Positions 3,769 through 53,336 of a stretch of 64,000 nucleotides of DNA are shown piece by piece. Under the pieces are notes generated by a model. That model was not told where the DNA came from and did not search any database. It saw nothing but the letters and a program-made list of their open reading frames with translations. The position numbers and the translations under genes were made by a program. This stretch comes from Buxus sempervirens (lineage: Eukaryota; Streptophyta; Magnoliopsida; Buxales; Buxaceae): assembly GCA_947561395.2 (NCBI GenBank), contig OX387190.1:19400858-19464857 (forward strand). Direction: 5' to 3'. Positions within the stretch are counted from its first letter, which is position 1; each line of letters begins with the position of its first letter.

Positions 3769-3910
3769 GTATCCGACAACTCAGGTCGGATACAAGCGTA
3801 TCCCTTTATATCCGATATAAGTTGTCGGATACAAGCAAGCCTTAATGTATCCGACATCATATGTCGGATACATATAGGCACTTGTGTATCCGACCTGATA
3901 TGTCAGATAC
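3769..3910 (+). repeat. array of four 25-bp dyads with 39-bp period (E0/E1 LTR)
   Basis: Four imperfect palindromes start at 3769, 3808, 3847 and 3886, exactly 39 bp apart. Each is 25 bp with outer stems of the form GTATCCGAC...GTCGGATAC around a variable centre. The 14-bp spacers are loosely alike, some with a GCCTTA-like core. The array lies about 170 bp upstream of the LTR TATA box. Confidence 0.92.
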
Positions 3911-4076
3911 ATGATTTTTGCTCAAAATTAGGATTTTCCGAGAGTCATCACTTTTTACCATCATATCCTTCATTAAAGGAGTGGAAATCTCGGAAATAGC
4001 CTTAGGGTTAAGGTTGGTGGGCTCTAGACATTAGTTTATGTCTACCATCCCACCAACCCTAACCCTAGCCTTTGCC

Positions 4077-4084
4077 TATAAATA
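4077..4084 (+). promoter_or_regulatory. LTR TATA box (E0/E1)
   Basis: TATAAATAGGAGGC lies in the context CCTATAAATAGGAG, which is conserved in the young LTRs of the same superfamily at 53493 and, reversed, at 39803. It is the likely RNA polymerase II core promoter and marks the U3/R boundary shortly downstream. Confidence 0.75.
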
Positions 4085-4212
4085 GGAGGCTCCTCCTTAA
4101 GCAAATGGCCATTAACTCTTGTGAACAACTTTTGCAAAGAACTTTTGCCATAAATGGGAGATCAAAGAACTCCGAGTGAAGAGGGGAACCGCTGCAGTCT
4201 TGCTTCCAGAAG

Positions 4213-4222
4213 CCCAGGTAAA
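4213..4222 (+). promoter_or_regulatory. candidate 5' splice site in LTR R/U5
   Basis: CCCAG|GTAAAC fits the plant donor consensus. The same position in the young LTRs reads TCAG|GTAAGC (53601-53610; reversed at 39691-39700). Paired with an acceptor just before gag, it could remove the long repeat-filled leader from gag mRNA. This is inference from sequence only. Confidence 0.45.
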
Positions 4223-6168
4223 CCTCAAACCTCTCTTTATTTTTCTGTTCTTACATTCTAGATCTAGATCTCTTCTTCTACCTTTCTGTAGAATAAGGCC
4301 TCTTCTATGTGTGTGAAAACCTTTCCCCTACTCAAAGTACCTCGAGACTCCCCCTAGCCGTAAAACGTGAAGGCGGGATCTAGGGGAAATGAGACTGGGG
4401 ATTGATCCTAGTGCTAGAACCTTGTTGGAATAAGCCTTTTGATTCTATGAAAACCGTTTCATATTCAAAGTACCCCAAGATTATCTTGAAGAACCATGTA
4501 TAAACCAGAAGAGAGAACTAAGGGAAACGATAATGGAACGGAACCCTATGTTGTTCTAGAACCCCTTTGATTGATATGAATACATGCTATATGTTGTTAT
4601 ATTGTTGAAGAATAGATTTTTACACATACACACATAGCACTTGTTTTGTCGGATTTGGCTTGTATTTTGGATCTATTGCCATCATTGTGGTAGATCTACA
4701 ATAAATAGCCCCAAAAAAATTCTGGGATGTTTCTTATTGATTTTCAACATGATTTCAAGCAAGTATTGAAGACCTCTAGGTCTAACCTCTCGGTTTTGGG
4801 CATTTTTGCTCACTTTTGGGGTTTTTGGCATTTCCTTTCCAATCAGAGAGGATGGTGAGCCAAACTTGTGCCCATTTCTTCCTAGAGGTTCTTCAATATC
4901 TTTCTAAAATGGTTTTGTTTTGTCTTACACGGATTCCACACACTTTATCACTGTTTGGAGTTGATTTTCTTTAAAAAGGTTTAATTTGACAGCAACTGTA
5001 CCCCAACTTCGGACACTCGTAACTTCATCGTCCGGATGAATTTTGGAGTGATTCCAGAGCCATGGGAAAGGTGAGGCTGTCTAGTTTATGCTTGTAAAAT
5101 TTCATGAATTTCTATCTATCGGATTTTTGACACCTCCCTGTCGAAGTTGATAGGTCAGTTCAGGTTTGAATACGGAACCTGTCACTTCGACTGTGTGTTC
5201 GTTTTAAGTCCAATTCGAGTGATTCTTGTTTCTGTGTGTTTCCTTTAGAAGTCGAGTTTCAAATCCAGTTAGTTTCATAATTGTTTAACTCCATTTGTGT
5301 TCTTGGTAACAGATTTACTCAGAGCTGCTCAACAGCACTTTTCTGGGTAAATCTGTGATCTTCGGGGCTTGTTCGGGAGGCCACCCAAGGCACATCCGAA
5401 TGAATTTTTGTATGAGGCTAGTTTCATTTGAAATATGGCCATACATACTTCATTCACACCAAATTTCATGAATTTATATGGAGCCGATTTTTCTAGATGA
5501 TTTTCCAAACTTGACCGCTTGTCACTTTTTACTATCTCCAGCAGCAATTTTAAAAGAAGCATAACTCCTAGGATTTCAACCGGATTTAATTGAAATTTTG
5601 CATGAGTCTCTTATTTACCATAATCTTTCAAATGAATTTGGTTTGACTCAATTTAAATTGGATTTGAATGATTTCAAGATAAATGGTTCTTGCTTTTACC
5701 GAATTTTCCGGATTTGACTCAACTTGGTTTTATACAACTTTTGCTTTGATTTTCATCTATTGGTGATATTCCAGAAATGATATTGACATAAAAGAGGATC
5801 TGGAATTCATTTGGATTTTCATGTGAAGATATCATACATTTGATTTATCCTTGTTCAAGGTTTTTAATGATTTTAGCAAGCTTTCTTATTTTTTTAGCAT
5901 GAACAACACTTGACAACCACCTTGTGTGGGTGAATGGGGGTGCCTAACACCTTCCTCCGTTCATAATCTAATCCCCTTACCCATCTTTGGATTTGATTTT
6001 CAAGTAGAGTTATTTTTACTCTAGAATTTACCTTATAGTTTTTTTTTTGCTTCTTTTGGTGTCCATTCTCACCCCAATAATCTGAATGGTGGCGACTCTC
6101 CCATTTTACGTTGAGCCCGTATGTTGACGGAGGGGAATCATCCCGGTGATTTTTCCATGTCTCACAAC

Positions 6169-8056: not shown

Positions 8057-8198
8057 TTAACCGACAACTCAGGTCGGTTAAACAAAGTCTTCTTCTTATC
8101 CGACATGTTCCATCAGTTACAAAGGCTTATGCATATATCCGATCATTTGTGTCGGATACAATAAGCCATAGCTTTAGCCGACATGTCATGTCGGATAC
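8057..8198 (+). repeat. second array of four 25-bp dyads, 39-bp period (E1 leader)
   Basis: Dyads start at 8057, 8096, 8135 and 8174, again exactly 39 bp apart with 14-bp spacers. Stems follow the LTR array of the same element (CCGAC...GTCGG), for example TTAACCGAC...GTCGGTTAA. The second unit has decayed pairing. The array sits about 320 bp ahead of the 76-bp tandem repeat. Confidence 0.92.
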
Positions 8199-10580: not shown

Positions 10581-10583
10581 TAG

Positions 10584-12936: not shown

Positions 12937-13413
12937 TGTAGACACCTGATTTTTGCACCCCCAAAATAAAGAAAAATGAAAAGTAAAACCCTGAGGGGGT
13001 CAAAAAGTTGACCTTCAAAATTCATCTCATTAAAAAGAGCATCTCGACACGGTTCTAACGCAACTGAATTTGCTGGAATCGGAGTCCGATGAGGAAAATA
13101 TAAGCTGGTCAACCCCAATTTAGCTGCCAAACTTGATCCCGATGAAAAGGTGATTCCGAGCCGGTTCTAATGACACTAAGTTTGCTGAAATCGGACACCG
13201 GACAAAGAAGTTATGGACAGTTGAAATTTCAGAAAAGCTGCCCATGCGGCAAAAAGGCAGTAAAAGATGGAACAAACCAATAAAATGAATGTGTTTATTA
13301 ATATTTTAATAAAGGGAATCTCGTTCTACAATAAAATAATCGGAAAAATCGAATGAAATCTTGCAAAAAATCAAATTGGATAAAGTTTTGAAATCCAAAC
13401 ATTTTAAAAACGT

Positions 13414-13599
13414 GCTGGTATTTGAAATACGGGCAGCCTTCTAGAAGAGGACGCGCGTCACTGTACGGCGGGACACGCATCCTGTACGGCTGATTCTGCA
13501 AGATTTGCGAATGTGCGTTTTTAGACCGTATTTGAAGTACGGGCAAGGATGCCCGTATTTAAAGTACGGACAAGGCATACCCGTATTTTAAATACGGGC
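13414..13599 (+). repeat. dyad array in the E2 LTR (21-bp units)
   Basis: Good palindromes of 21 bp start at 13524, 13551 and 13579 (period 27-28 bp), built as CCCGTATTT...AAATACGGG. A partial one lies at 13414. The array ends 16 bp before the TATA box. It occupies the same place as the 39-bp arrays of the E and F families but has a different stem and period. Further CCCGTA/TACGGG pairs are scattered at 14400-14510. Confidence 0.85.
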
Positions 13600-13614
13600 A
13601 CGCCCCTTTTTGCC

Positions 13615-13622
13615 TATAAATA
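13615..13622 (+). promoter_or_regulatory. LTR TATA box (E2)
   Basis: TGCCTATAAATAGAGAGG has the same CCTATAAATA core context as the E-family LTRs, and lies directly downstream of the dyad array. Confidence 0.7.
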
Positions 13623-15250
13623 GAGAGGTTCCCCCCTCATTTGAACAAGAGGAGAACCATAGGCCTCCGCCTCCTCTCTTCCTTGCTGATTACTATGGCC
13701 ACACTCTACCAAATTACCACCACCCCAATACCTAAATCTCCTTTAATACCCAAAATGCCCTTGTATGCCTAAAACTCTTCATTTCTTGCCTCCATGCATG
13801 AACTACCTTCCCCACCTCTTTCCATTTCGTCCTCATAAAATTTGGAGGACGCGGAAGCGCTGCCGAAATCTCTAGAGAGTCACTACATCACCAAATCAAA
13901 GGAGTACTAGTGTGGTAACTTTTATATCAACTTCTTTTTTTCAATATATATGAACCATTTCATTTAAGTTCTCTTTTATTTTTATTACTGTACTACTAAC
14001 TCATTGGCTTCACTGTTTGTTGGAGTATTCCCATGCAAATGAGCATTTTCTTGTGGGATAAGAGGAAGATGGAACCATAAAACTAACATAAAAAAAATAA
14101 TAATAACATGTCTTAGTTAATAGATTGAATTCATAAGTGCCTCTTTAAACCCTCCTATGTAATCCCCTCCCCACTACCAATTCCCTTTCTTTTGCTACAT
14201 TATTGGAAGATGACATGATCCAAAAAATGGGGCTTAGTCCCATTCTCAAGCACCAACAAAAGAGGACTTGAAGATGATGAAGGAGGCAAGTGTGCCATAT
14301 TAGAAGACACCAGAACTACCACCGAAGTTGCTGAAGACCTCAAAGAAGCCACGGAACTAATCCCAAGCAAAATCGGCAGCAAAAGTGCAAAATAAGCTGT
14401 GCCCGTAGACTCAGAGCGGTTTGGGCATGCCCATATTTGCTATACGGGCAAGCCAAACCGGACTTCATTCACGAGCCAGGATAGCCCGTATAACAAACAC
14501 GGGCTGGTGTAAATGTAATTTAAAAAACCTAATTTTTTGGCCCGGTTGGACTTGATCCAGCCTGAACTGGCTTGAACCGATCTTTTATACACTTTGGGCT
14601 ATTTTTAGCCCATTTGAGGACTTTGGGACTAGATAGGCCCAACAATACAACCCTGGGCCCACTTGTGGGGCCCACTTTTGACCGGCCCAAACCGGGCCCA
14701 TTTTCAATGAACGGGCTCAAGGCCACTTGACTCTGGCTAATGGGCCAAATCCAAGCCCATTAAGCCCAAATAAAAATGTAAATAAATAAAGCTTAATAAA
14801 TAACCAAAACGGGTTACCCAATAACCCTACTGGGCCCAAGGCCCAACCATGGCAGCCCACAGGTCTTCCAACGGGATCCGGGTCCGACCCACTTCATCTA
14901 AATAAATAAGAAAGATAAAATCAAAATAAAAGGAACCCACACCTTCAGAGGACCCCGCCAGACCTAATAAGGCAGCATGTTGGTCTAGGAAGGGTGAGAT
15001 TGACTCAAAAACCAAGGAGACCCGAGGGACCCGTCAAACCGACGGGGCGGGCCGGGGTGTCTTAGGGCTTCCCCGGACGTAACTGAGGACTTAGCTAGAT
15101 CTCTAATAAGCCGTAGACCAGACTTAGACCCGGTTAGGGCTAAACCATGTCTGCCTGCACTCTCAGACAGTGGCGACTCCGAATGTCCCGAGGCACGCGC
15201 GAAAAGTGCGCCCGATGTGCGATCTAGGCCAGGTTTAGGTACGCACAGCT

Positions 15251-15269: not shown

Positions 15270-16558
15270 CCCTCGACCCAACTGGACCCTGGTTAACAAA
15301 TGAGTCAACTAGGTGGATATAGGCTTACTTAGGAAGTACTTTTTGTCCAACCTTAGTGAAGTACTGAACACTTGCAATTGCATAATATGGGGGTCCTGAC
15401 AAACGGACGCGATAATTGCCTAAGGTAAGCCGGAGTTTTGAGTGGGATCCCTGAGTCCTCTCAACTTACATGGGGATCCTCCCATATATTGCATTGCCAG
15501 TTGTTCTATACTTTACTATAAATATGGCATTAAGGAACCCTCTGTTGGCCCTTATCCGAGAATTACCCGAACAGACACAGCACTTGACCCCACTGTACAT
15601 ACAAGCACTTCACTACACCGTGAATGAATTTAACTGCGTGGGGTGACATGCACGAGGGAGTCTGCATGAATGATCCGAACTAAATGATGTCTGCATATGC
15701 TCTTCTTTACCAAGACCTAGATCTCTCTAGCAGCCACCCTTCTTTAATCGAGAAACTTACTTTTGGGATGGTATTAGCCCTACGCTCCCGTGGCTTGCCG
15801 GGGAAAGCAGGGTAAACCCATCTCCCCATGTTTCTAGACTCTTTAAGCGCCATTGGTTTCTTACCATGGTACGCAAGGGGTCTAGTACTTGGCTTAGACC
15901 CTTGAAGGCAGGTGCCTTGGGCTGGGTATCCTTCCCCACCTATTACTTCTGATAAACCCTGATGTGAGCATGAACAGGAATGAACAAATATGAGTCAAAT
16001 CAATCTGGGGCATTAACCCCCGCTGTTGTTTGTCTTAACCCTAATTTAAGGAAATTAACCTGATTTAATCCGTGCGTCCAAGTCGGCCTTGGTTCAGATG
16101 AAAGCCGGCTAGATCAGATAGAAATGGGTCAGAACAAGGGGCAGAAAAACCCTAGAGATAGGATTTCAGCCCACCTGTTGAGTAATGAATTTGTACCCTC
16201 CTTTTGGGTTCTCAACAACCCTAAAGGTGATTCTCTTTGCAGATTTATTTTTTGTAAATTTCGCCCTCGATGGCAAGTTGTAAATATTGTTTTTAGTCCG
16301 ACATTAGGGGCAGATGAAAAGAGCAGATGAAAGATCAGATGAAAGAACAAATGAAAGAAAAGACCGGCTAAGACCTGAATGTGCATTTAAAGGACATAAC
16401 CCTTAAAATCACATAACTTGAGTGCTTAATTCTCATGATTGCATAAATTGCTTAGGCATTGATTTAATTTTTGCATATCCTATTGCATGCCTTAGACTAA
16501 TTTAGAGTTTTTGGTGGAAAACCCTAAATTGACTTGGAATTTATATCGGATAGTCGGC
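15270..16558 (+). other. E2 leader, homologous to the F leader
   Basis: This non-coding stretch shares ordered landmarks with 29015-30150 of family F: a GATAATYGCCTAAGG segment (about 15409), GTGGGGTGACAYGCACGAGGG (about 15637), TCTAGCAGCC (about 15726), GGGATGGTATTAGC (about 15764) and CTCCCGTGGCTTGCC (about 15785). E2 and F are therefore related elements whose early leaders are conserved although their later leaders are unrelated repeats. Confidence 0.7.
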
Positions 16559-17992
16559 ATGGCATCTTCATCCTCGACTGAGAGAGTTCGCTTCCCCAGG
16601 ATAGAGAAGTGTGCCTTTGATACCCCTTGGATCCGTTCTTGGACAAGGCAATTGCAAGGAAATGAGCAAATTAAATGGGAACGGGATTACCACATGGTAC
16701 AAACTCTGTCCCTGTTAAATGTGCCCATTAATTGGGACATGATTCAAGTAGCCTTGCCTTTTTGGGATCCCCAGCTTTCCTTCTTCATATTTGGGACTAA
16801 TGAGTTGACTCCTACAGTTGAGGAATTTGAACTATTCCTCCGGTTCCGTGACCATGGAGAACCAGACAGGCCAAACCTCAAAGATAGCTACAAGAATGAA
16901 GCTTGTACTTTCTTTGGCCTACCCAGAGGAGAATTCCAAACTTTAGGAGGTGACCAAGCATTCACGCGGGTCTCTAAAACCTTCCTCGCTGAAAAGATAA
17001 GGGACAAAAAGTAGGAAAGACCCCGTGTTTGGTGGGACACCTTCACCCTCGTGGTTCTGTCACAGGTCTTCTTTCCTACTGGAGGAGACACCATTAATTT
17101 GGCCCTCATGGAAATTATAGACCAACTCCAAGTGAAATTCCGAATTGCGCCGCTGATTCTTGCTCAGCTATACCATGCCTTGACCATGACCAAGAATGGA
17201 ACTAGGAGGTTTCAGGGATGCGCTCCTCTCCTACACATTTGGCTTCAAGATCACCTGATGGTTGCTGAACCTGTCAGCCCACATTATGGGTACGTCCATG
17301 ACAATGTCACCTTGATGGCCCGAAGAGAGATTAGACCAGACTTACCATCCAGAGAGGACTGGTTTGACCACTTTCTCCAACTAAGGGGAAAAATTGATAT
17401 AAGATGGGGAGGCACATTTGACCAAGCATATACCCCTGTCATAGCTTTCAGGAAAAGACATTGCCTAGCCTTGATAGGCTTAACTCATGCCATGCCATAC
17501 TATCCGATTCGAATTCTGAGACAGTTTGGGAAGTCTCAAGGAATACCGATCAAGGATGAGGCGGAAGGATTAACTGGCCCACTTACATGGGAATTGAAGA
17601 AAAAATTGGTGAAGGAATGGCAACACGTGCACATACTCCAAGAGGACATTTTCACTGCATCCGACGTTCGTGATTACAAACAATGGATTGCTCGAGAAAC
17701 TGGCCTTGACAGCCCACGTCTTCTCCATATCGTCACCTCTGACGATATCCCAGTTCTGCCCCCTGACACATACAGGGATAGGGTGGCTAAATTGCGGGAA
17801 TCTCATTCTCGGATCCACCGTGCATACGTGGATTCCGAGCATAAAAACAAACAGGCCAATGAGGCCCTTCAGCAGCAACTTGACACCATGCGCAGACGCG
17901 CAAAAGAGGACCGACGTCTGTGGAATAAACTTCTGCGTGCCTTGAGAAGGCGAGACGTGTCCTCTCGTTATGATAATGACCAACCTAGCTAG
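16559..17992 (+). pseudogene. Ogre-type ORF1, plant-mobile-domain-like (DUF7745-like), in E2
   Basis: The likely start is MASSSSTERVRFPRIEKC at 16559. The product resembles the plant mobile domain / aminotransferase-like group often annotated in plant genomes. Visible landmarks are FWDPQLSFFIFGTNELTPTVEEFELFL, FFPTGGDTINLALMEIID, the LIGLTHAMPYYPIRILRQF block, and a basic, coiled-coil-like C terminus (QANEALQQQLDTMRRRAKEDRR). It is homologous to the antisense protein at 51690-52574 (compare LAGLKHAMLYLPLRVLRQF). The role in the element is unknown. The gene carries about one break. A host-gene origin is possible, but its position between the primer site and gag shows that it travels with the element. 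Confidence 0.75.
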
Positions 17993-25524: not shown

Positions 25525-26208
25525 TGTACGCACCCGATTTCGGTTGCACGACGAGGCGCACGCAAAACGGAGCGTGCCTTGGGATTTGTTTGGAGTCGCC
25601 ACTGCCTGATGGGGTGCAGGCAGACACCTGGGTGCCTAAGTTCTTCTACTAAGGCTTGGTCTGCGGCTTGAGATTCTAAGTAGGTTCTCGGTTGCGGTCT
25701 GGGGAAGTCCATAGACACCCCAGTCCACCCCGTCAAGTAACGGGTCCCATAACTTTCCCTGGTTTGAGTCAACTCAGTTGGTCTCTCACTCACCCGATGC
25801 CTAATCCAACATTCAATTTTGGTTAAGTCTGGCGGGACCGCCAAAGTGGTGTGGGTCCCTTTACTTGATTTTATCTTCTTATTATTGAATGAAGTGAGTC
25901 TGATTGGGTGGGTCTCGTTGGAAGGCCCACGGATCCCTTAGTAGGCTTGGTTGAGCCCACGTGTCCCTTTGTGGGCCTCAGTCTAGCCTGAGAGGCCCTT
26001 TGGGCTTTGGTTCAAATGAATTGATTTTACTTTAAGGTTTAAGTTGGATTATTTAAATGGATTTCATGCCAAAAGTGGGCCGAGGCTGTTTGTGGGCCCC
26101 TGAGTGGGCCTCGGCCTGGTTGCCAAGTGTTTTGAGTTTATTTGGGTTAATCTTTGCCAAAATGGGCCAGGATTTGGGCTTGGGGCCCTTTACCTGGGTG
26201 TAAGCACC
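25525..26208 (-). repeat. partial family-F LTR, minus orientation
   Basis: This is the reverse complement of the last ~680 bp of the F LTR (about 28320-28993). It starts at the exact LTR terminus, TGTACGCACCCG = revcomp of CGGGTGCGTACA. The plus-strand F LTR begins at 26209. The simplest reading is that a plus-strand F element inserted into the LTR of an older minus-strand F element. Confidence 0.85.
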
Positions 26209-26954: not shown

Positions 26955-26965
26955 ATTATTTTTTC

Positions 26966-26973
26966 TATAAAAA
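26966..26973 (+). promoter_or_regulatory. LTR TATA box (F)
   Basis: TTTTCTATAAAAAGC directly follows the dyad array and is the best TATA match in the F LTR. Confidence 0.65.
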
Positions 26974-31060: not shown

Positions 31061-31080
31061 CCATTTCGCGCTTCCGCTAA

Positions 31081-37210: not shown

Positions 37211-37927
37211 TGTAAGCACCTTATTTTTGCACCCCTGGAAGTGCTGAAAATGAAAACCCTAGCAAAAAAGTCAAACCCTGAGGGGTTGAAAGTTGACCTT
37301 TTAATCAGATAAAATTTGGCCACATCGCCTTACCCCATTGGATAGAGAATCTCGACACGAGTCCAACGCAACTGAGTTTGCTGAAATCGAAGTCCGGATG
37401 AGGGTTCTGCGGGCAGTCAAACTTAAGAGAAGGCCAAAAATTGACTTTTCCTAGAAATCCGGGCCAAGTGCTTAGCCCTATGCCATTGGATAGAGGACTC
37501 CGATGCGAGTCTAACACAATATAGTTTGCTCAAATCGGAGTTCGGATGAGAGAGATATGAGCTGTCAAAGTTTCCGGACAGCAAAGCCAGAAACTGCACA
37601 CGTGGCGCAAGAACTGCGCACGTGGCAGCCAACGCAGCAAAATATCTCAGGGACTAAATCTTAATTATAAAAAATTCGTACGGGCTACCGTAGATATCAA
37701 AAAGGGTCAAATCGGTCGAATCGGTCGAGTCGAAGGGCAAATCTGTAATTTTTTCGATTTGTATCCGGTCACATATACCGGATACACTGCCTATCCTTCA
37801 TGGCCGGACTTGAAGACCGGATACATGAAGATATTCACGCGACATTTGCGCCACTTGGCCGACAGATTCGCGGCGGCATTTAATTTCCAAATGATTGTGT
37901 TTGTATCCGGACTTGAAGACCGGATAC
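37211..37927 (+). repeat. 5' part of the F 3' LTR, cut by E-
   Basis: It matches 26209-26925 with about 2.5% difference by eye. It ends exactly at the last base of a 25-bp dyad (37903-37927), where the minus-strand E LTR begins. The remainder would be expected to the right of the window. Confidence 0.92.
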
Positions 37928-40198
37928 TGTGAGACATGGGAAAAAATCACCGGTGTGATCATCCCTCCGTCAACACACGGGCTCAACGCAAAAGTGGGAG
38001 AGTCGCCACCATTCATGATTTTGGGGTGAGAATGGACACCAAAGATTCAAAAGTATGCAAAAATAGCCAAAAGACAAATTCTAGGGTAAAAATAACCCTA
38101 CTTGAAAATAAAATCCAGAGATGGGTAAGGGGATTAGATTATGAACGGGGGAAGGTATTAGGCACCCCCATTCATCCACACGAAGTGGTTGCCAAGTGTA
38201 TATTCATGCAAAAAACAAAGTAAGAAAGCTTGCTAAAAATCATGAGAAACCTTGAAAAAGGAACAATGTATGATATTTTCACATGAAGATCCAAATGGAT
38301 TTTAGATCTTCTCTTATGTCAATATCACTTCTGGAGTATTTCAAAAGATGGAAATCAAAGTAGAGGTTGCATAAAACCAAGTTAAATCAAATCCGGAAAA
38401 TTCGGTAAAAAGTATGCCATTTGCCTTAAAATCATTCAAATCCAATTCTGAATTGAACCAAACCAAATCCATTTGAAAGATTAGGGTAAATAAGAGTCTC
38501 ATGCAAAATTTCACTTCATTCCGATGAAAAATCTAGGAGTTATGCTCCTTTGAAATTGCTGCTGGGGATTTTTAAAAGTGGTAAGTGGGCAACTTTTGAA
38601 AATTGTCTAGAAAAATCCACTACATAGAAATCCACGAAATTTGGTGTGATTGAAGTCTGTATGGCCATCTTTCAACAGAAACTAGCCTCATACAAAAATC
38701 CCTTCGGATGTGCCTTGGGTGGTCTCCCGAACAGGCCCCGAAGATCACAGATTTACCCAGAAAAATGCAAATGAGCAGTTCTGAGTAAATCGGCTACCAA
38801 TAATTCAAATGGAATCCAAAAATTATGAAACCAACTGGATTTGAAAATAGACTCATAAAGGAGTACCCAGAAATAAAAATCACTCAAATCGGACTTAAAA
38901 CGAACACATGGCGGTCCATCGAAGTGACAAGTTCTGTACTTGGACCTGAACTGTCCACTTAACTTCGACAGAGAAGTGTCAAACATCGGCTAGATAGAAA
39001 TTCATGAAATTTGGTGGACATAAACTAGACAGCCTCACCTTTCCCATGGTTCTGAAATCACCCCAAAATTCATCCGGATGATGAAGTTATGGGCGTCCGA
39101 AGTAAGGGTACAGGTGCTGTCAAGCTAAGCCACTTTTGAAGAAAATCAAATCCGAAAATTGACAAAAAGTGTGTGATTCGTGTGAGATGAATCCAAAACC
39201 TTTGAAAAACATTTAAAAACACTCCAGAATTTGATTGAGGTCATTTATTTGAGTTTTATCACAATAAATGCAATAAACCCCAAATATGAGCCTATCCCGC
39301 CAAAATAGTGATATGTGTGCAAGAGTGAAAAAAACCAAGCAAGATCCATACACATGCATATAGATTCAACAAAATAGGTTCTAGCATAGCCTAGGGTTCC
39401 GTTCCATTATCGTTTCCCTCTGTTCTCTTTAAGATAATCAAGGGTACTTTGAATATGGAACGGTTTTCAATCAATCAAAAGCCTTACGCTACATAGGTTC
39501 TGGCACTAGGGGCAATCCCCAGTCTCGTTTCTCCTAGATCCGCCTTCACGTTTTACGGCTAGGGGAGTCTTGAGATACTTTGAGCCGGGGAAGGATTTCC
39601 ACACATACAAACAAGGCTTTACACTACAGAAAGGTAGAAGAAGAGATCTAGATCTAGGAATGTAAAGACAAAAAATAAAAAGAAAAGTTGAGGCTTACCT
39701 GAGTGCTGGAGGTGATTCCACAGCGGTTTTCTTCTTCTCTTGGAGTTCTTCTTTGCGAGAATTCAAAACAAGAGTTGTGTGCCATTTGCTCAAGGAGGCT
39801 CCTATTTATAGGCAAGGGCTAAGGTCATTGGTAGACACAAATTAATGTCTAGAACCCCTCCAACCTAAACCCTAAGGTTATTTCCGCGATTTCCCCTCAT
39901 TTAATGAGGGACATGATGGTAAAAGTGAAAAGCTCTCGGAAAACCCTAATCTTGAGCAAACTTAAGGTATCCGGTATATCAGACCGGATAACAAAGGGCC
40001 TTAAGGTATCCGGTACAAGGGACCGGATACGCTAAGGCTCACACGTATCCGGTACGACTATCCGGATACGGGGAGGAGCACTTGTATCCGGATTGAGTAT
40101 CCGGATACAGGATAAATTTTATTTTCTTCAAATTCTGTGCTGGCTTTCCAGGAGATAATGATTTTTGATGATTGTTTGTGCAATTTGGGGTGTCTACA
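37928..40198 (-). repeat. 3' LTR of E- (minus orientation)
   Basis: On the plus strand it starts TGTGAGACATGGG and ends GGGGTGTCTACA, 2.27 kb. Spot comparison with the LTR at 53105-55376 gives a difference of about 1-2%, so it is young. Reversed landmarks are the TATA box at 39803-39810 and a donor-like AGGCTTACCTGA at 39691. Confidence 0.92.
39967..40108 (-). repeat. array of four 25-bp dyads, 39-bp period (E- LTR)
   Basis: Dyads start at 39967, 40006, 40045 and 40084, exactly 39 bp apart, with stems TATCCGG...CCGGATA. This is the reversed counterpart of 53195-53336. Confidence 0.93.
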
Positions 40199-41821: not shown

Positions 41822-41963
41822 ATAACCGGTAACTCAGGCCGGTTAATAACAGTTCTGTTCATATCCGGTATATATATCCGGATACAAAGGCATATGCATC
41901 TATCCGGTTAGGATGACCGGATACCATAAGGCATATCCTTATCCGGTATATTATACCGGATAC
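41822..41963 (+). repeat. array of four 25-bp dyads, 39-bp period (E+ leader)
   Basis: Dyads start at 41822, 41861, 41900 and 41939, exactly 39 bp apart. Stems are AACCGG...CCGGTT and TATCCGG...CCGGATA. The matching units in E1 (8057-8198) have CCGAC...GTCGG, so both arms changed together. Confidence 0.93.
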
Positions 41964-44488: not shown

Positions 44489-47163
44489 GTGAACCTAGTC
44501 CAGGCTCCTCCAGCCAAGAAGCCACTTCACGTCAACATCTCGGCACCCCAACAGGCCCAACAGGCCCAGCAGTCGTACCAGACCCCGCTGAATGTCAACT
44601 TCTCTCCCTCTGTGCCAGCTAACACAAGGAGGACTTTTTCTAAGGAGGAGCGGGATGCCTGGTTCACAGCAAGAAAGAACCGGGTTTTCACCCCTCTACC
44701 CATATCTCTATCCCAACTACTGCCAACCCTGCTGAAAGGGGAATACTTGACTCTGAAGGAGCCTAACCCAAATCCCCTGAAAGGGAGAAATTTTGACACA
44801 TCGGTCACCTGTGACTTCCACATGGGTGCACCGGGGCACTCTACTGATACCTGCTGGGTATTGAAGCATGCAGTCCAGGATTTGTTGGACCAGAAGGCCT
44901 TGGTGTTCAACACTGCTGCACCCGCCCCGTCGGGAAATGATATTGGGCAGAACCCTCTGCCGTACCACAATGGGGCAGGCCCATCCAACTCCATCACTGC
45001 CATATCCACCACCAGAAGGGCCTTTGACCCATCACAGCTTATAGCACCAGTAGGGACTACAGTCCAGGTCCGATTTTTCCCAGAGGAGGACGAAGAGGAG
45101 ATCAACATGGTCTCCCAAAAAAATAATCTTGCTGCTGAGGACATAAGCTCCTCCTTAAACCGGGTCTCTTCTCTGATGGCCCAGATAAATACTGCAAGGC
45201 CTCCATTGGTCTTCAATTGCAGTCCACCCACTTATTCCCCATCCAAGCCGTCTAAGGCTCCATTGGTCATCAATCTTGACCCCACCACTACTTCCATCAC
45301 TTCTTCTGTCCCCACAAATTCCAAACTTCAACCCTTGGTTGTAAATGTGCAGCCAGCCCATGCTATCCCTAAACCGGCCCATACATCCCGGTCCAGACTC
45401 CAGCCATTAGTGGTAAACATCCCTAAACTAGCCTATTCTGAGGCCGCTGTACCATGGAATTACAGCGAGGGAATCACGGCTACGGTTCCAGTGGTCAAAG
45501 ACCAGAACCAGGAGGAGGTGAACCTCATGACGAGGTCAGGGAGATGTGCAGGGGGTGAAGAGAAAGAAAAAGAGACAGAAGTAGAGAAAGAAAAAAAAGA
45601 AAATGAAGAAAAAAGAAAACAGAAAGGAAAAAATAAAGTGGGAGAAGACACCCCCCAGGGTGCAGAAAATGAGGCAGCCGACCTCATAAAAATAATAAAA
45701 AAGAGTGAATTTAATCTTGTGGATCAGCTAAACAAGGTCCCGGCCCAGATTTCAATACTGGGCCTTTTGCTGAATTCTGAAAAGCATAGGGATGCATTGT
45801 TAAGGGTGCTACAGAGTGCACACGTATCCCAGACCATTGATCCAGACCAGCTTGGTAAAATGGTTGGTCAAATCTTGTCACATAATGTGATAAGTTTCTC
45901 AGAGGGTGAGATCAGCCCAGGTGGGTGTTATCATGTGGACCCTTTGCACATCACTGTGTTTTGTAAGGGCTGCATGGTTGCACGGGTTTTAATTGACAAC
46001 GGGTCAGCGTTAAACGTTTGCCCGTTAATCACTTTTACCAAGCTGGGTCTGGACCAGTCAAGGATCAAAAGAAATGGGCGGATAGTGAGGGCTTTTGATA
46101 GCTCCAAGACCCACTCCCTAGGGGAGATTGAACTGCCGATCACAATTGGGCCGAATATCTTTAACATCACATTTGAAGTGATGGATATACCCGCAGCATT
46201 CAATCTGCTCCTAGGAAGGCCGTGGATACATTCGGCTAGGGCAATACCATCCACGCTCCACCAGAGGGTGAAATACATAAGAGGGCAAAAGGTGATAACA
46301 GTCCTAGCTGAAAACTTGGTGCCGCCCATTGTGTCACCCGATGTACCCTTAATCAATGTGGACTTGACTGTGGACAAGATTGCATTCCACTCATTCCAAT
46401 TTGAGGCGGTCAATTTCATACCTGGGGGTGTGATAAAAAGAATGAAAAGGGGACCACTGCAGAAAAAATGGTCAAGAAAGTGATGGAGAAATACCACTTT
46501 CACCCAGGGAAAGGCCTGGGGATCAATCTGCAGGGTATGGTGGAGCCAATCACGGCTAAGAAACTAGTCCCAAGGGTAGGGTTGGGCTTCAAGCCCAGAG
46601 GTTGGAGGAGAATGAAGCATGAAGAAGGGGAGAGCAGAAGCAAAGGAAAACTCTCGCATCTGAAGGTGAACTTCCCAAAACCCTCCTATATAATCCAAAT
46701 TTCTCCTCCTATGGACCAATCAAAACCTCCCTACTACAATGTCAACCCATTTCAAAAGCCCGTTGTTTCGGCCCTACAACCCTATAACCCATCTCTAATA
46801 CTGGAAGCAGCAGATGGGCCTGGATCACAGCCCGAGCAGCAGAGGGACTTTTCTGAAGATGTTGGTGCATTCTTCGCCATGACTGAAGGCGAAAAGACAG
46901 GGGCAGACATGGAACTGCCATTCATTGATTGGGCCGCAGTAAAGATTCCAGACAAGGTCATTTCTGGATTGGGCCCCGCAGCAGAAAAGGGCAGTACCCA
47001 CCCGGTGATGATGGCATCGGATTCTGGGTTTGAAGAGCAGGCTTTCCCTATTTCCCCTGCTCCCCAAAATTTTGTACTGAACAATTGGGAGGAAACTCCC
47101 CTTACTTTTGAAGCAGCGTCTGTGTGGCAAACTGACGCGGCTTCCAAAAAAAAACTCCAATAG
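44489..47163 (+). pseudogene. protease and G-patch region of E+
   Basis: Layout is as in E-: knuckle-like CDFHMGAPGHSTDTC, Pro/Ser-rich linker, Lys/Glu-rich stretch, protease VLIDNGSALNVC (about 45990-46020), LLGRPWIH, G-patch HPGKGLGINLQG (about 46500-46540), and an acidic tail. A small number of breaks distinguish it from the open minus-strand version. Confidence 0.88.
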
Positions 47164-50100
47164 TGGAATGCCATTTCCCTGAAGGTTCTAATGGGCCTTT
47201 GTCTTCAGGGGAATTATGTTTAGAAGGCCCACAAAAAACCCAAAAAGATTTTTCTATTTTTTCTAGGAAATTTAATTTTTTCAAAAAGGTACAAACCACT
47301 TATGAACCATATAATCAGACCGAATTGGACCAGGTTGAATATGACTTCGACCTTGAGCTCGACTTTGATCTCATGGGGGTCGAAGAAGAGACCGAGGTCG
47401 AAGAAGAAAACGTTCCAAAAGAAATTGAATACCAATTAGAACGTCATGAAAAGGGGGTCCAACCTAATATTGAGGAGACCATATCCATAAATCTTGGGAC
47501 CGACGAGGACCCAAAAATTGTGAAAATCGGGTCATGCTTGTCTGATGTGCAGAAAAATGAAATGTCACAATTCTTGGCAGACTACAAAGATGTGTTTGCT
47601 TTGTCATATCGGGACATGCCGGGGTTGGACACTGACATGGTGGTGCACAAGTTGCCAATTTTGCCAGGGGTTAAGCCGATTAAGCAGAAGCTGAGAAGAT
47701 TGAAACCTGAGTGGACCTTGAAGGTCAAGGACGAAGTGGTCAAACAATTCCAAGCCGGATTTTTGGCAGTCTCTACGTACCCTGAGTGGCTCGCAAACAT
47801 AGTGTCAGTACCAAAGAAGGACGGGAAAGTCCGAATGTGCGTGGACTATAGAGACTTAAACAGGGCAAGCCCAAAGGACGATTTTCCGCTTCCACACATC
47901 GACATTCTAGTCGATAATACTGCGATACATAGCCTGTTCTCTTTTATGGATGGGTTCTCAGGATATAATCAGATCAAAATGGCTAAGGAAGATCAAGAGA
48001 AAACAGCATTTATCACACCTTGGGGCACATTCCACTACACGGTCATGCCGTTTGGGCTTAAGAACGCTGGGGCAACATACCAGCGGGCAATGACTGCACT
48101 ATTCCATGACATGATCCACAAGGAGATGGAGGTCTATGTGGACGATATGATTGCCAAATCATGCAAAGAGGAGGACCACTTGATCAATCTGAAGAAAGTG
48201 TTTGATCGGCTCAGGAAGTACAGTCTACGGCTTAACCCGGCTAAATGCGTCTTTGGGGCTACATCAGGGAAGTTACTGGGGTTTATAGTGAGCCGAAGAG
48301 GAATTGAAATTGACCCGGCTAAAGCCAAGGCCATAATTGAAATGCCAGCACCCAGAACCGAGAAGGAGGTCAGGGGCTTTCTTGGAAGGATTCAATACAT
48401 AAGCCGGTTCATAGCACAGCTCACTGCTATCTGTGAACCAATTTTCAAACTTCTAAGGAAGGATAACCCGACGGTCTGGAATGAGGACTGCCAGCAGGCG
48501 TTTGACAAAATAAAGAGGTATTTGCTGAACCCGCCTGTGCTAGTGCCACCAACTCCAGGAAGACCGCTGATCCTGTACTTGTCAGTGTTGGAAACGTCGA
48601 TGGGATGTGTCTTGGGGCAGCATGATGAGACTGGTAGAAAAGAAAGGGCAATTTACTATCTGAGTAAAAAATTCACAGAATATGAAGCTAAGTACTCATC
48701 ATTGGAGAAGACTTGTTGTGCTCTAGTGTGGGCCACTCAGAGGCTAAGGCATTATTTCCTTAGTCACTCCACACTATTGATATCCCGGATGGACCCGCTG
48801 AAATATTTATTTGAGAAACCGGCATTAACTGGCAGGACGGCAAAGTGGCAACTGCTACTGTCCGAGTTTGACCTCACATACATCACCCAGAAGGCGATCA
48901 AGGGTCAAGCCATAGCTGATCACCTGGCTGCACATCCTCTGCCAGAATATCAACCCTTGAATACCAACTTCCCAGATGAGGCAATTCTGTACACTGAAGA
49001 GGAGGACAGTGAGAGTTCTTGGCAGATGTTCTTCGATGGGGCCGCCAACATGAATGGGAACGGAATAGGGGCAGTCTTGGTTAAACCAGATGGTTCACAC
49101 ATCCCAATTACAGTAAAGCTGAGATTCCAGTGCACCAATAACATAGCAGAATATGAGGCATGCATAAATGGATTGCAAGCAGCCATGGATCATGGAGTAG
49201 AGGAACTTGACGTATACGGGGATTCGAGTCTTATCATCTTCCAAACAACTGGTGAGTGGAAAACAAAGGATCACAAATTGATCCCCTATCACCAGTATTT
49301 GGAAGAAATAAGCACAAATTTCACTCGAATTTCCTTCAACTATATGCCAAGGGCCAAGAATCAGTTTGCGGATGCTCTAGCAACCTTGGCTTCAATGGTC
49401 AGCATACCAGAAGGAGTAGACATCAGACCGCTGAAAATTGAGGTTAGAGATGAACCGGCTTATTGTCTCGTTCTAGAGGGAGCACCAGAGGAAGAAACAC
49501 CATGGTTTCAAGATATCAAGAATTTCTTGAATAATCGGAGTCTGCCAGAGAATGCCACTGCTACTGAGAAGAGGACAATACAGAGATTGGCTGGTCAATT
49601 TCTGCTAAGTGGTGGACATGTGTACAAGAGGTCACATAACGACATTCTGCTCAGATGTGTTGCCAAGGCTGAATCGGAAAGGCTGATTGAGACTGTACAT
49701 GGAGGAGTCTGTGGGCCCCATATGAGTGGGCACATGCTGGCTAAGAAGATCCTGAGGCTGGGATACTACTGGACGACCATGGAGCACGATTGCTGTATAC
49801 ATGTCAGGAGGTGCCACCAATGCCAGATATATGCAGATAACAAGCATGCACCCCCAGGTGAGCTGCACAACATGACATCACCCTGGCCCTTCTCTATGTG
49901 GGGCATAGATGTCATTGGCATGATCTACCCTAAAGCATCGAACGGACACAGATTCATCTTGGTGGCAATTGATTATTTCACTAAGTGGGTAGAAGCAGCA
50001 TCATATGCGAATATCACAAGCAACCATGTTATTAAATTTTTGAAGCACAATATCATTTGTCGCTATGGACTGCCAAATGCCATAGTATCAGACAATGCTT

Positions 50101-50750
50101 CAAATATTAAGAACAAGGACATGAAGAAAATGTGTGAGCAGTTTCAGATCACCCATCATAAGTCAGCTCCGTACAGGCCAAAGATGAATGGGGCAGTGGA
50201 AGCAGCAAACAAGAACATAAAGAAAATCATTCAGAAGATGGTAGTCAGCTACAAGGATTGGCATGAAATGCTGCCACTTGCTCTACATGCCTACAGAACC
50301 TCGATCCGGACTTCAACTGGGGCAACCCCGTACTCCCTAGTCTATGGGATGGAAGCAGTCTTGCCCGTGGAAGTAGAGATCCCCTCACTCCGAGTGCTCA
50401 TGGAAGCAGAACTAGAAGAAGCCGAATGGGTCCAATCAAGACATGATCAACTTAACCTGATAGAAGAAAAGCGGTTGAAAGCACTTTGCCATGGACAGTT
50501 GTACCAGAAGAGAATGGCCCGGGCTTACAATAAGAAAGTGAGGCCCAGAACTTTCCAAGAAGGAAACTTAGTGCTAAAGAAAATCTTACCATTTTTGGAA
50601 CACCCTCGTGGTAAGTTCAAGCCCAATTGGGAAGGCCCATATGTCATCAAGAAAGTCCTATCAGGGGGTGCACTCATCTTAGCAGAAATGGATGGGTCAG
50701 ATTTTCCTGAGCCCATTAACTCTGATGCGGTAAAAAGGTATTTCCCTTGA
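47163..50750 (+). CDS. Tat-type pol core of E+ (RT, RNase H, second RNase H, integrase)
   Basis: Open frame of 1195 residues. An acidic N-terminal part (DLELDFDLMGVEEETEVEEE) precedes RT (KKDGKVRMCVDYRDLNRASP near 220; YVDD at 325-328). RT-linked RNase H follows (about 455-545), then a second RNase H (MFFDGAANMNGNG, about 622-745). Integrase has a zinc part (H...H...CHQC, about 843-885), catalytic D near 914, D near 977, E near 1013 (DD35E), and a C-terminal GPYVIKKV. No chromodomain. The enzyme copies element RNA into DNA and inserts it. A TTTTTCTATTTTTTCTAG acceptor-like site at about 47249-47266 fits the pro-RT intron known in Ogre elements. Activity is not claimed; the element lacks a plus-strand 5' LTR here. 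Confidence 0.9.
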   Translation: MECHFPEGSNGPLSSGELCLEGPQKTQKDFSIFSRKFNFFKKVQTTYEPYNQTELDQVEYDFDLELDFDLMGVEEETEVEEENVPKEIEYQLERHEKGVQPNIEETISINLGTDEDPKIVKIGSCLSDVQKNEMSQFLADYKDVFALSYRDMPGLDTDMVVHKLPILPGVKPIKQKLRRLKPEWTLKVKDEVVKQFQAGFLAVSTYPEWLANIVSVPKKDGKVRMCVDYRDLNRASPKDDFPLPHIDILVDNTAIHSLFSFMDGFSGYNQIKMAKEDQEKTAFITPWGTFHYTVMPFGLKNAGATYQRAMTALFHDMIHKEMEVYVDDMIAKSCKEEDHLINLKKVFDRLRKYSLRLNPAKCVFGATSGKLLGFIVSRRGIEIDPAKAKAIIEMPAPRTEKEVRGFLGRIQYISRFIAQLTAICEPIFKLLRKDNPTVWNEDCQQAFDKIKRYLLNPPVLVPPTPGRPLILYLSVLETSMGCVLGQHDETGRKERAIYYLSKKFTEYEAKYSSLEKTCCALVWATQRLRHYFLSHSTLLISRMDPLKYLFEKPALTGRTAKWQLLLSEFDLTYITQKAIKGQAIADHLAAHPLPEYQPLNTNFPDEAILYTEEEDSESSWQMFFDGAANMNGNGIGAVLVKPDGSHIPITVKLRFQCTNNIAEYEACINGLQAAMDHGVEELDVYGDSSLIIFQTTGEWKTKDHKLIPYHQYLEEISTNFTRISFNYMPRAKNQFADALATLASMVSIPEGVDIRPLKIEVRDEPAYCLVLEGAPEEETPWFQDIKNFLNNRSLPENATATEKRTIQRLAGQFLLSGGHVYKRSHNDILLRCVAKAESERLIETVHGGVCGPHMSGHMLAKKILRLGYYWTTMEHDCCIHVRRCHQCQIYADNKHAPPGELHNMTSPWPFSMWGIDVIGMIYPKASNGHRFILVAIDYFTKWVEAASYANITSNHVIKFLKHNIICRYGLPNAIVSDNASNIKNKDMKKMCEQFQITHHKSAPYRPKMNGAVEAANKNIKKIIQKMVVSYKDWHEMLPLALHAYRTSIRTSTGATPYSLVYGMEAVLPVEVEIPSLRVLMEAELEEAEWVQSRHDQLNLIEEKRLKALCHGQLYQKRMARAYNKKVRPRTFQEGNLVLKKILPFLEHPRGKFKPNWEGPYVIKKVLSGGALILAEMDGSDFPEPINSDAVKRYFP

Positions 50751-53104
50751 GCGAATATTCCTAGGAAGTGATCCGAGGCCATTTTTCTTTATTTCCTTCA
50801 AAAATTTTAATCCCTAGTCGAGCCAAGTTGAGCCGGTTCGTTTCTTTGATAAACCCAAACCGGATTTACAGTCTTAAATTGGGGCAAAACAAATTGGGGC
50901 AAAGTAAGGAAAGAAAAAGAAAAAGAGAGGAAAAGCAATGGAAATGGCAAATGAAAGCCAAGTGTGAAAAAAGATGCAAAAAAATGCAATTTGGGGAAAA
51001 ATGGGTAAATTTATCATGACTGTAAATCCGGTTGACCTATATCCACACTTGGAAAATTTTGGGCCTTTAATACCCTTTCTTTCATAAACTGAGCCTAGCC
51101 TTTGTTTCGTCCTATTTTTAAGCCCTCGGTGATCTTAGCTTGTTCATTCAAATATCAGAGTAAGATGGGTGATGACGGAATTCAGAAGCCGGCCCTAGTG
51201 AAAACCGTAACTGGCGCTAGGGGCAATATTGGCAAAAGGGCAAAAAGAAAAAAAATGAGAAAAATGAAAGAAAATCAGAGGTTGAGTTGATCATGGAAAT
51301 CTGAGCCTTAAGCAAAGTTGGCATGAGCAGAATGGGGCAGTTTTGGCAGTTGGGGATGACTCTAAAGGTCCTAAGATGGACGGTTCTGATCCCTCAGTAT
51401 TTTCTGGACTACCCTTCTCATTATTTAACCTGGTTTTAATTCCTTTAATTATAGGTGATTAAGTGCATGGACCAAATTTCAAAAAAATACAAAAAAATAT
51501 AAAAAGGAAAAATTATACCTTGGCCAATGATGAGAAATCAAATACTTTTCATAAAACCTTTGTTTTTACAAGCATCTGAGCATTCTGAGGCCAATAATAT
51601 AAAAACTTTATTTTGAATTAAATCCTTTGTATTTCCACTATTGGAGTTCAATTTTGTACAAAGGTATGAAAAATGTGCAGGAAATAAAGCTAGTCTCCTA
51701 GCCGCTCCTCAAGCTCCCGAATCCGAGCTGCCTGAGCTGCAATAACTCCTGAAGCCCCCTCTGCAGCGGGATCACTCAGGAAGGAACTGACCTCATCTGA
51801 AAGGGCCTGCTTAATCCTCATACTCCTAAGGCTGGCCAAAGTAGCCTGGTACTTCTGCCGGATCATACGGACCTCGAAGCAACGGGCCTGCCTCTGCTCC
51901 TCCAGCTTCTCTTCCACGACAATACGGCGGGAGATCTGCTCCTTAAGCTGCCTCTCCAGATAAGCGCCCTGTATCCTGAGCTCCTGGGCCTCCCGTACCC
52001 ATATCTGCTGAAGCCGCTTATGAGAAGCCCGTTCAGACTCTAGAATGTCCTCATAAGTGGGAGCCAAGACTACTGGAGGATCTTCGGGTACCAGGGCCTG
52101 AGTCTGTACCTGTTCCTTGATCCAGAAGAAATAATCCTTCACATGGGCTTCTGAGAAGACTGGATCATGCATAAAGCGGACATAAGACCACTCCTTCATC
52201 AACCAGGCATTCAGCTTCATAGAAAGGGGCCCAAGACGATCCTCATATCCACATGGGATGATAATCCCCTGGGTCGCACGGAACTGACGAAGGACCCGCA
52301 GAGGAAGATACAGCATTGCATGCTTCAAGCCCGCTAGGATCAGAAAGTTGCGGTCACGGAAGCTAATCACTGTCTCTGCATTAGGCTGATAAGTACCAGG
52401 CCATCTCACCTGATCATCCTGAAGCGAGCCCAAGAAAGTGAACCAGCCCTGTTTGCCCCCTGGAATATCGGGGCACCCCCTGTTGCTCATCAAGAGAGGG
52501 ACTTTTAGACTCGGGAAGAAGTGTCGATTGATCTCTTCAATCTGGCTCAACTGATCAAGTAGCCAAAGCTGCAAAGGAAGGGAGATATGTCAGCACATTG
52601 TAATAAAAAAAAAAAGAAGCAGAAAAGGCAAAAAGAATGCCAAAAAGGCAAGAAAAAAAAAAAAAGAAGAAAAAAACAAGAAAAAAAGAAAAAAGCAAAC
52701 TTGTGCTATAATTCTTACTATTTTCTCAAAAATCCTATTTTTGTCTTGAAATCCACCTCACAGCCACGAGAGCTCTGTGGAATTTGGGACAACTTTGGGA
52801 AATGTGCCTGGTCAAAAGGATGATATCCACTCAATTTTCAACTTGGTTTAATAAAAAATCAGTTTTTCAAAAATCCTATTTTTGGGCTTAAAAACCACTT
52901 CACAGCCACAAAGGGCTCAGTGGAATTTAAGAACTCTTGGAGAGATGCCCCCTTAAAGTGAGGGCTTTTTGGCAAATCTCCACTCAAAAATGGTTTTCTA
53001 CAGAAATTGAATTGAACCGAGCAAATCATGCTCAAGGGAGTGCAATTTGGGCTTGTCTACTCTTTGCAGCTCACTGCTTCGCAGCTCCCACAAAGAGGGG
53101 CAGT
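50751..53104 (+). other. 3' region of E+ between pol and the LTR
   Basis: It holds a purine-rich tract (50885-51010), the CCCTCGGTGATCTTAG landmark (51123), the antisense ORF (51690-52574), an A-rich low-complexity run (52600-52700), and two related ~120-bp units (about 52735 and 52870) with TTTTTCAAAAATCC...TTCACAGCCAC. It ends in the PPT CAAAGAGGGGCAGT (53091-53104). Confidence 0.75.
51690..52574 (-). CDS. antisense ORF of the Tat element, plant-mobile-domain-like
   Basis: An open frame of 294 residues on the strand opposite to pol. The N-terminal two thirds resemble the plant-mobile-domain / DUF7745-like proteins: CPDIPGGKQGWFTFLG, VISFRDRNFLILAGLKHAM, LYLPLRVLRQFRATQGI and KDYFFWIKEQ. 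The C-terminal third is a long Arg/Glu/Gln-rich coiled coil (LERQLKEQISRRIVVEEKLEEQRQAR...AARIRELEERLGD). Antisense ORFs between pol and the 3' LTR are known in Tat-lineage elements. Their role is unknown. It is homologous to the sense ORF1 of E2 (16559-17992), and a remnant exists in E0. The start is uncertain: the family usually has more sequence before this point, so an upstream exon is possible. Confidence 0.72.
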   Translation of the reverse strand: MQLWLLDQLSQIEEINRHFFPSLKVPLLMSNRGCPDIPGGKQGWFTFLGSLQDDQVRWPGTYQPNAETVISFRDRNFLILAGLKHAMLYLPLRVLRQFRATQGIIIPCGYEDRLGPLSMKLNAWLMKEWSYVRFMHDPVFSEAHVKDYFFWIKEQVQTQALVPEDPPVVLAPTYEDILESERASHKRLQQIWVREAQELRIQGAYLERQLKEQISRRIVVEEKLEEQRQARCFEVRMIRQKYQATLASLRSMRIKQALSDEVSSFLSDPAAEGASGVIAAQAARIRELEERLGD

Positions 53105-53194
53105 TGTAGACACCCCAAATTGCACAAACAATCATCAAAAATCATTATCTCCTGGAAAGCCAGCACAAAATTTGAAGAAAATAAAATTTATCCT

Positions 53195-53336
53195 GTATCC
53201 GGATACTCAATCCGGATACAAGTGCTCCTCCCCGTATCCGGATAGTCGTACCGGATACGTGTGAGCCTTAGCGTATCCGGTACCTTGTACCGGATACCTT
53301 AAGGCCCTTTGTTATCTGGTCTGATATACCGGATAC
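53195..53336 (+). repeat. array of four 25-bp dyads, 39-bp period (E+ LTR)
   Basis: Dyads start at 53195, 53234, 53273 and 53312, exactly 39 bp apart. Stems are GTATCCGG...CCGGATAC. The 14-bp spacers differ but include GAGCCTTAGC and TTAAGGCCC. The array ends about 157 bp before the TATA box. Confidence 0.93.

Follow-up and report, generated by a model that had tools for sequence, protein, structure and literature searches.

A 64,000-nucleotide window of the Buxus sempervirens genome (assembly GCA_947561395.2, contig OX387190.1, forward-strand positions 19,400,858 to 19,464,857) carries arrays of short dyads, or inverted repeats, in the long terminal repeats (LTRs) and 5' regions of Ty3/gypsy retrotransposons of the Tat lineage, designated here A, B, D, E and F. 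The arrays share a core, CCG-N11-CGG, with flanks that differ between subfamilies, and the arms of all eight orthologous dyads of A and E differ in concert at one symmetric position although the arrays align without a gap. The explanation that seems to us best, with an even chance of being correct, is that the arrays are sites in the element's own promoter and 5' region for a dimeric binder of changed specificity, plausibly encoded by the element itself.

Dyad arrays and their common core

A search for GTATCCGR-N9-YCGGATAC with at most three mismatches gave 29 matches, against 0.17 in shuffled sequence, two of which (26558 and 37570) are weak D copies outside the arrays. A weight matrix built from 30 units, including three from the second D LTR, regained all 30 together with these two copies, which lay barely above threshold, while matches above threshold in 20 block shuffles averaged 0.6 and numbered at most 2. 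In a scan that sought dyads irrespective of their sequence and was run without shuffled control, no spacing was commoner than 39 at 13 of the 18 arm distances tried, one of these being a tie. The exact core CCG-N11-CGG occurs 36 times, compared with a mean of 2.54 and a largest count of 6 in 100 shuffles; 27 copies fall in the 30 units (those at 3886, 8096 and 53312 have no exact core), five in the arrays of B and four elsewhere. Among CCG/CGG gaps of 0 to 40, N11 leads with 36, N37 follows with 28 and all others reach at most 16; we read the counts for N37 and N24 (16) as pairing with the next dyad. Regular runs, defined as three or more core copies evenly spaced 20-60 bp apart, with a tolerance of one base in the step and of a single mismatch in the core, number eight, six of them already listed and two in B, where 100 block shuffles gave a mean of 0.49 and a maximum of 3. 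The D U3 arrays are absent from these runs because of their 103-bp gap.

If near-copies are counted, A, D, E, F and the D copy provide 60 arms. Position 5 is C and position 7 is G in all 60, and position 8 is G in 44 and A in 16, the latter being the A-subfamily arms. The flanks of the CCG half-site read GTAT-CCG-GT in D, E and F and GTAT-CCG-AC in A; in B the half-site is CCG-TA.

An earlier, sequence-only reading of this DNA had described seven separate arrays of 25-bp units, placed in U3 and leader, with a period of exactly 39 bp that was constant between subfamilies, and always four units in the E family. All 27 units that it listed lie where it placed them, and in each between 5 and 11 of the 12 position pairs are complementary; the 39-bp period holds for 20 adjacent steps in the arrays of A, D, E and F. 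It does not hold in B, nor across the 103-bp gap that occurs once in the D U3 array and once in the copy of that array. The count of seven also needs amending: the array at 39967-40108 lies in the reverse-oriented F LTR, a 99% copy of 53021-55376, and is therefore no independent evidence, while two B arrays and three D units had been missed. Four units are the rule in A, E and F, but not in D (2+2 and 3) or the U3 array of B (3). As for location, the U3 arrays do lie upstream of the TATA box, whereas the D array at 27825 is inside the LTR, downstream of TATA, and not in a leader following the primer-binding site (PBS). The arrays are double in A, B, D and E, with one in U3 upstream of TATA and the other downstream of TATA, in the LTR or the leader (Table 1). 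The dyad centre, usually variable, is AACTCAGG in the first units at 3769-3793 (A U3) and at 8057-8081, 27825-27849 and 41822-41846 (downstream arrays of A, D and E).

Element B combines this architecture with arms of its own, CCGTA..TACGG, at steps of 27/28 bp; its units at 14431 and 14458 are one core base off each. Given these steps, the common invariant is the N11 core and not the 39-bp step, and spacing was dropped as the invariant. The gag identities, calculated over the aligned parts, are 85% for A and E, 43-47% for D or B against A or E, and 51% for D and B; the latter two match, in addition, at the end of the LTR and past it (69%). Since the layout is common to elements with gag identity of only 43-51%, it is old within the clade. 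An informal tree drawn from gag and LTR matches, ((A,E),(B,D)), makes it likely that GTATCCGG and 39 bp are the ancestral state and that the states of A and B are derived.

The arm switch between A and E and its rival readings

The gap-free alignment of A and E, in U3 and leader alike, yields 8 orthologous dyads with 16 arms. At arm position 8 all 16 differ, always symmetrically, and the change read from E to A is G>A in the left arm and C>T in the right arm of every dyad. Differences affect 14 of 16 arms at position 9 and 5 of 16 at position 1, but only 5 of 96 bases at positions 2-7; they number 23/56 in the centres, 31/84 in the spacers and 84/481 in aligned sequence outside the arrays. Arm identity is 0.72 between orthologous A and E units, lower than within A (0.78-0.92) or E (0.82-0.88), whereas the identity of centre plus spacer (units 1-3) is 0.43-0.76 between orthologous units, 0.29-0.48 within A and 0.19-0.52 within E, an orthology signal that is clear in the leader and overlapping in U3. 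Since spacers follow orthology and arms follow subfamily, homogenisation of the repeats is no explanation; the units, as we read the alignment, kept their place while their arms moved together. Such a concerted switch is what a changed specificity in a shared binder would predict. The sharing of CpG inside and outside the dyads (13/19 versus 3/9) did not differ significantly (p 0.11) and was not used.

Under the explanation that we favor, the arrays would be duplex-DNA sites for a dimeric, sequence-specific protein acting on the element's own U3 promoter and transcribed 5' region. Each dyad would be one dimer site, composed of the core and a subfamily-specific flank, and the sites would have changed with the specificity of the binder. 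A DNA-binding protein of whatever origin is the probable reader of these sites; whether it is element-encoded we consider evenly balanced, and its effect on the element would be activation or anti-silencing.

A selected structure, as the sequence-only reading had proposed, is supported. It had offered two options, RNA hairpins and binding sites of a dimeric protein, and the second is the better fit, because the sequence of the arms, beyond their self-complementarity, is kept in each subfamily and switched in 16 of 16 cases, the centres are variable and there is no G-U excess at arm positions 1-8. Hairpins in the genomic RNA, serving packaging, translation control or as double-stranded RNA for small RNAs, are unlikely in our estimation, even though the five arrays that were folded (A and E leader, A and E U3, D downstream; the D U3, F and B arrays were outside this set) fold far better than shuffles, with z from -7.2 to -13.0, some units in each fold pairing with other units. 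The arm pairs also covary, with 20 cells changed on both sides versus 6.9 when shuffled and a score of 0.263 versus 0.132; most measures exceed those of both the shuffles and the slid controls, the exception being the number of pair types (9 versus 7.8, 116/500). A DNA palindrome, however, yields folding and covariation as well, so that neither favors RNA over a DNA dyad. Moreover, pairing alone would suffice for hairpins, whereas each subfamily has one arm sequence. Mismatch types, counted in 23 non-redundant units (the 30 minus three D copies and four F copies), comprise 2 G-U, 7 A-C and 11 others at arm positions 1-8, which are small numbers; at the variable position 9, G-U (5) exceeds A-C (1), as hairpins would have it, and positions 1-9 together give 7 against 8, so that G-U is in no clear excess. 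The lack of a G-U bias at positions 1-8 argues weakly against hairpins, and it was the mismatch types at positions 1-8 that demoted them as first choice despite strong folds and covariation.

The duplex DNA might also be read by a host transcription factor dimer with CCG half-sites, recruited as an LTR enhancer, in which case the subfamilies would have switched between paralogous factors; LOB-domain factors were among the host binders considered. This possibility, doubtful but substantial, would account for the location of the U3 arrays, which in all of A, B, D and E precede TATA, the place of host enhancers, and for the single half-site GTATCCGG retained by D and E, whose gags are only 45-47% identical in the aligned part, as a conserved host factor would favor. 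Another array of this type, lying far downstream and co-switched with the first, is in our judgement unusual for an enhancer, and three half-site types occur together in one window. That the arrays are instead a functionless minisatellite, homogenised by unequal exchange or gene conversion, is very improbable. About half of recently active Retand elements do have tandem arrays between pol and the 3' LTR, according to the accessible part of one report (PMC11963269), and other leader repeats in the window resemble ordinary minisatellites; but orthology mostly governs the centres and spacers, and subfamily the arms, the spacing of A and E is without indels over both arrays, and members of one array do not resemble each other, as whole units, more than orthologous units do, although the U3 values partly overlap. 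Hardly any weight can be given, finally, to the change from CCGG to CCGA as decay of methylated cytosine, which in plants occurs at CCG sites, rather than selection. All position 8 changes, from E to A, are indeed G>A or C>T, and position 6 is T in 3 of 60 arms, yet the equivalent outer C at position 5 and the G at position 7 are intact throughout, and 10 of the 14 changes at position 9 are T>C or A>G, which are not deamination products if the E state is older.

A candidate binder and known systems

The candidate for a dimeric binder is an extra open reading frame (ORF) of the plant mobile domain (PMD)/DUF7745 type, found in sense orientation in B and, as a homologue (32% over 250 aa, E 7e-36), in antisense orientation in E, 0.6-0.8 kb from the U3 array of the E 3' LTR. 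The C terminus of the E product, P0001, looks coiled-coil-like to us, and such a tail would suit a dimer. On the minus strand, a pyrimidine tract (52605-52569) with an acceptor-like TTTGCAG at 52569 precedes this ORF and suggests an intron before it; no upstream exon was identified. A PMD extra ORF is reported in 57% of Ogre elements in the available text of PMC6317226. A Transposase_28 ORF occurs in 23% of Retand elements. The window has the PMD/DUF7745 ORF of B and its antisense homologue after pol in E, in elements that may be either Ogre or Retand. Some products of Tat antisense ORFs are nuclear or predicted to bind DNA, with functions that the consulted parts of the sources describe as unknown (PMC7264820; PMC11963269). 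That the binder is this ORF in particular is a tentative proposal. Equally tentative is the wider idea of self-recognition in Tat elements, whereby the PMD protein of an element would bind its own dimer sites in U3 and leader, sustain expression and change together with the sites. If true, at least three private codes (CCG-GT, CCG-AC and CCG-TA) would exist side by side in one genome, and the non-autonomous D, carrying E-type sites, would borrow the E protein.

Several observations weigh against an element-encoded reader and the switch ascribed to it. P0001 has no Pfam match at E<=0.01, and none of 1669 candidates in the protein database is a homologue at E<=0.001. Structure prediction of the B ORF with P0001 gave a single C-terminal helix and otherwise an uninformative fold, with a mean predicted local distance difference test (pLDDT) score of 41. 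Over 54 codons shared by A1, a cut fragment, and the E antisense ORF, 16 codon differences are nonsynonymous and 9 synonymous, and this piece gives no sign of strong constraint. Neither a pol nor a PMD match was found in D, which has E-type sites and would thus need service in trans. The switch itself rests on one subfamily pair, with B as a further divergent case; the changes in its 16 arms need not have arisen independently of one another, and one orthologous spacer pair in U3 (0.43) falls below the top values within A (0.48) and within E (0.52). A PDB sequence search with P0002 gave two matches, at E 0.12 and 0.56, and was not used.

VANDALs are Mutator-like DNA transposons, whereas the elements of the window have LTRs and reverse transcriptase. 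In these Arabidopsis transposons, as here, short noncoding motifs are arranged in tandem and differ between related families, and according to the accessible text they co-evolve with an element-encoded protein, VANC (PMC5735166; PMC10398659). The binder is thus element-encoded in that system, while the window elements offer a candidate ORF only. The VANC21 motif, given as YAGTATTAY in the part of the report consulted (PMC5735166), is not a 25-bp dyad; the sites described here are putative and have exact steps. Transposon-borne target arrays being already known, we class as new the LTR retrotransposon carrier and the dimer geometry.

Within Tat, a nuclear or DNA-binding regulatory role has been proposed for the antisense ORFs Grande GENE23, RIRE2 and Retand TRP28, for which the consulted portions of the literature name no cis target (PMC7264820; PMC11963269); the dyads are candidate targets. 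TRP28 is the usual domain in Retand by the same partial sources, whereas the ORF of the window resembles PMD/DUF7745. MAIN and MAIL1, which have the same Pfam domain as the B ORF, are linked to the DOWN promoter motif and to transposon silencing, but they are host proteins and not element ORFs, and direct motif recognition is left open in the accessible text (PMC7156037; PMC9899485). The palindromes that Jedlicka et al. treat as insertion targets are a separate matter, as far as the available text goes (PMC6911290). No earlier description of such arrays was found in the open-licence literature, in the parts accessible, with subscription papers and bioRxiv outside its scope. A pattern scan of viral_contigs brought up 16 contigs but no array, 15 having no dyad above threshold and one having two isolated weak ones, and of the candidate stretches from a pol search, 4 in viral_contigs and 10 in genome_contigs, none was confirmed.

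The stress-response boxes of Tnt1 and ONSEN are repeated protein-binding sites in the LTR U3 that serve host factors. We know of no concerted switch of dyads, in place and in two arrays, for boxes of this kind. The half-sites of A and E, which differ mainly at two symmetric positions, provide a built-in control, so that specificity is testable by swaps. The arrays are a concrete candidate DNA ligand for the Tat antisense ORFs, whose function and targets are described as unknown in the parts of the sources consulted (PMC7264820; PMC11963269). If self-recognition is true, a sequence-specific, VANC-like form of it would have arisen in LTR retrotransposons too, and the related PMD proteins of the host, with their effects on gene expression and silencing, would acquire a probable biochemical role.

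The carrier elements and other repeats of the window

Judged from its sequence, the window is mostly a nest of Ty3/gypsy retrotransposons in which the carriers of the arrays are Tat elements. LTR ends, PBS-like sequences and sequences resembling a polypurine tract (PPT), a gag domain and pol are all present. The pol of E has RVT_1 (225-385), RT_RNaseH (474-578), RVT_3 (633-751) and rve (918-1015), and a second, archaeal-type RNase H between RNase H and integrase is the criterion for Tat (Ogre/Retand) in the accessible part of PMC6317226. This order, reverse transcriptase (RT), RNase H, second RNase H and integrase, fits Ogre or Retand of the angiosperm Tat clade, and Ogre and Retand elements do occur in angiosperms according to the same partial source (PMC6317226). 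The element boundaries in Table 1 come from self-comparison and from reading of the junctions, and the assignments and insertion order are inferred from matches.

Table 1. Arrays, elements and ORFs of the window (position 1 is its first nucleotide).
Feature	Position	Strand	Description
A U3 array	3769..3910	+	4 dyads, period 39, half-site GTATCCGAC; TATA at 4077
A leader array	8057..8198	+	4 dyads, period 39, half-site type CCGAC
B U3, further unit	13416		degenerate
B U3 array	13526..13597 (13526/13553/13581)	+	3 dyads CCGTA-N7-TACGG, steps 27 and 28 bp; just upstream of TATA (13615)
B post-TATA array	14403..14502 (14403, 14431, 14458, 14486)	+	4 units
D U3 array	26749..26954 (26749, 26788, 26891, 26930)	+	steps 39, 103, 39; half-site GTATCCGG; TATA at 26966
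D second array	27825..27927	+	3 dyads, period 39; in LTR, downstream of TATA
D U3 array, truncated copy	37761..37927 (37761, 37800, 37903)	+	in second D LTR; LTR cut exactly at dyad end
F U3 array	39967..40108	-	4 dyads, near-copy of E array; in LTR 40198->37928
E leader array	41822..41963	+	4 dyads, period 39, half-site type CCGG
E U3 array	53195..53336	+	4 dyads, period 39, half-site GTATCCGG; TATA at 53493
A1	1-3666		older body, antisense ORF cut; host of A2 insertion
A2	LTR 3667-6166, leader, gag from 9393, cut at 12936		inserted in A1
A2 LTR	3667..6166	+	TGTAGACACC...TCTCACA; PBS-like TGGTGACTCTACTGGGGA at 6169; homologous to E LTR
B	LTR 12937-15247, extra ORF 16496-17992, gag near 20188		inserted in A2
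B LTR	12937..15247	+	PBS-like sequence next; homology to D LTR end
B sense extra ORF	16496..17992	+	between LTR and gag; plant mobile domain/DUF7745 (Pfam); one in-frame stop
D	5' LTR 26199-28993, gag 32575, second LTR 37211-37927 (cut)		
D 5' LTR	26199..28993	+	PBS-like TGGCGACTCCACTGGGG next
F	body 64000->55377, 3' LTR 40198->37928	-	
E	leader from about 40318, gag, pol 47136-50750, antisense ORF 51690-52589		5' LTR missing
E pol ORF	47136..50750	+	RT, RNase H, second RNase H (RVT_3), integrase
E antisense extra ORF (P0001)	51690..52589	-	after pol; 299 aa stop to stop; homologue of B PMD/DUF7745 ORF
E 3' LTR	53105..55376	+	purine-rich PPT-like tract just before

A perfect 35-bp palindrome (one central base) lies at 40282-40318, where the F LTR side meets the E leader and the 5' LTR of E is missing. 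The F LTR starts exactly where a dyad of the D LTR ends (37927-37928), possibly through insertion at the dyad or as a recombination junction. The region after the B gag contains a minus-strand ORF (22733-23866) that matches Pfam Transposase_32 (E 1.5e-28).

The spacers within the arrays may hold a third site. GCCT or AGGC occurs in 10 of 16 of them, compared with a shuffled mean of 0.95 and a maximum of 6 in 5000, a count taken without F, the second copy of D and the spacer that spans the 103-bp gap of D. In seven of the 10 the motif has an identical register, on either strand, midway between dyads. This is suggestive only, the motif having been picked post hoc from spacers that are partly orthologous in A and E.

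Other repeats lie in the leaders. That of D (31056-32314) has a long array of 18-bp dyads, GAA(A/G)C-CATTTCGT-G(T/C)TTC, many at steps of 24-28 bp, and the arm pairs of 30 matched units are A-T in 14, G-C in 13, G-T in 2 and A-C in 1, a pairing that two repeat types inherited whole could also explain. Upstream of gag, tandem repeats of 71-83 bp (8553-9257 in A, 42271-43253 in E, 63275-63995 in F) contain a different 25-bp dyad, CTTGGAA-N11-TTCCAAG, whose gap is once more 11 bp; copies of CTTGGAA-N11-TTCCAA number 10 in A, 2 in E and 1 in F. More short tandem arrays are found in the leaders of D (30826-31011) and B (19239-19552).

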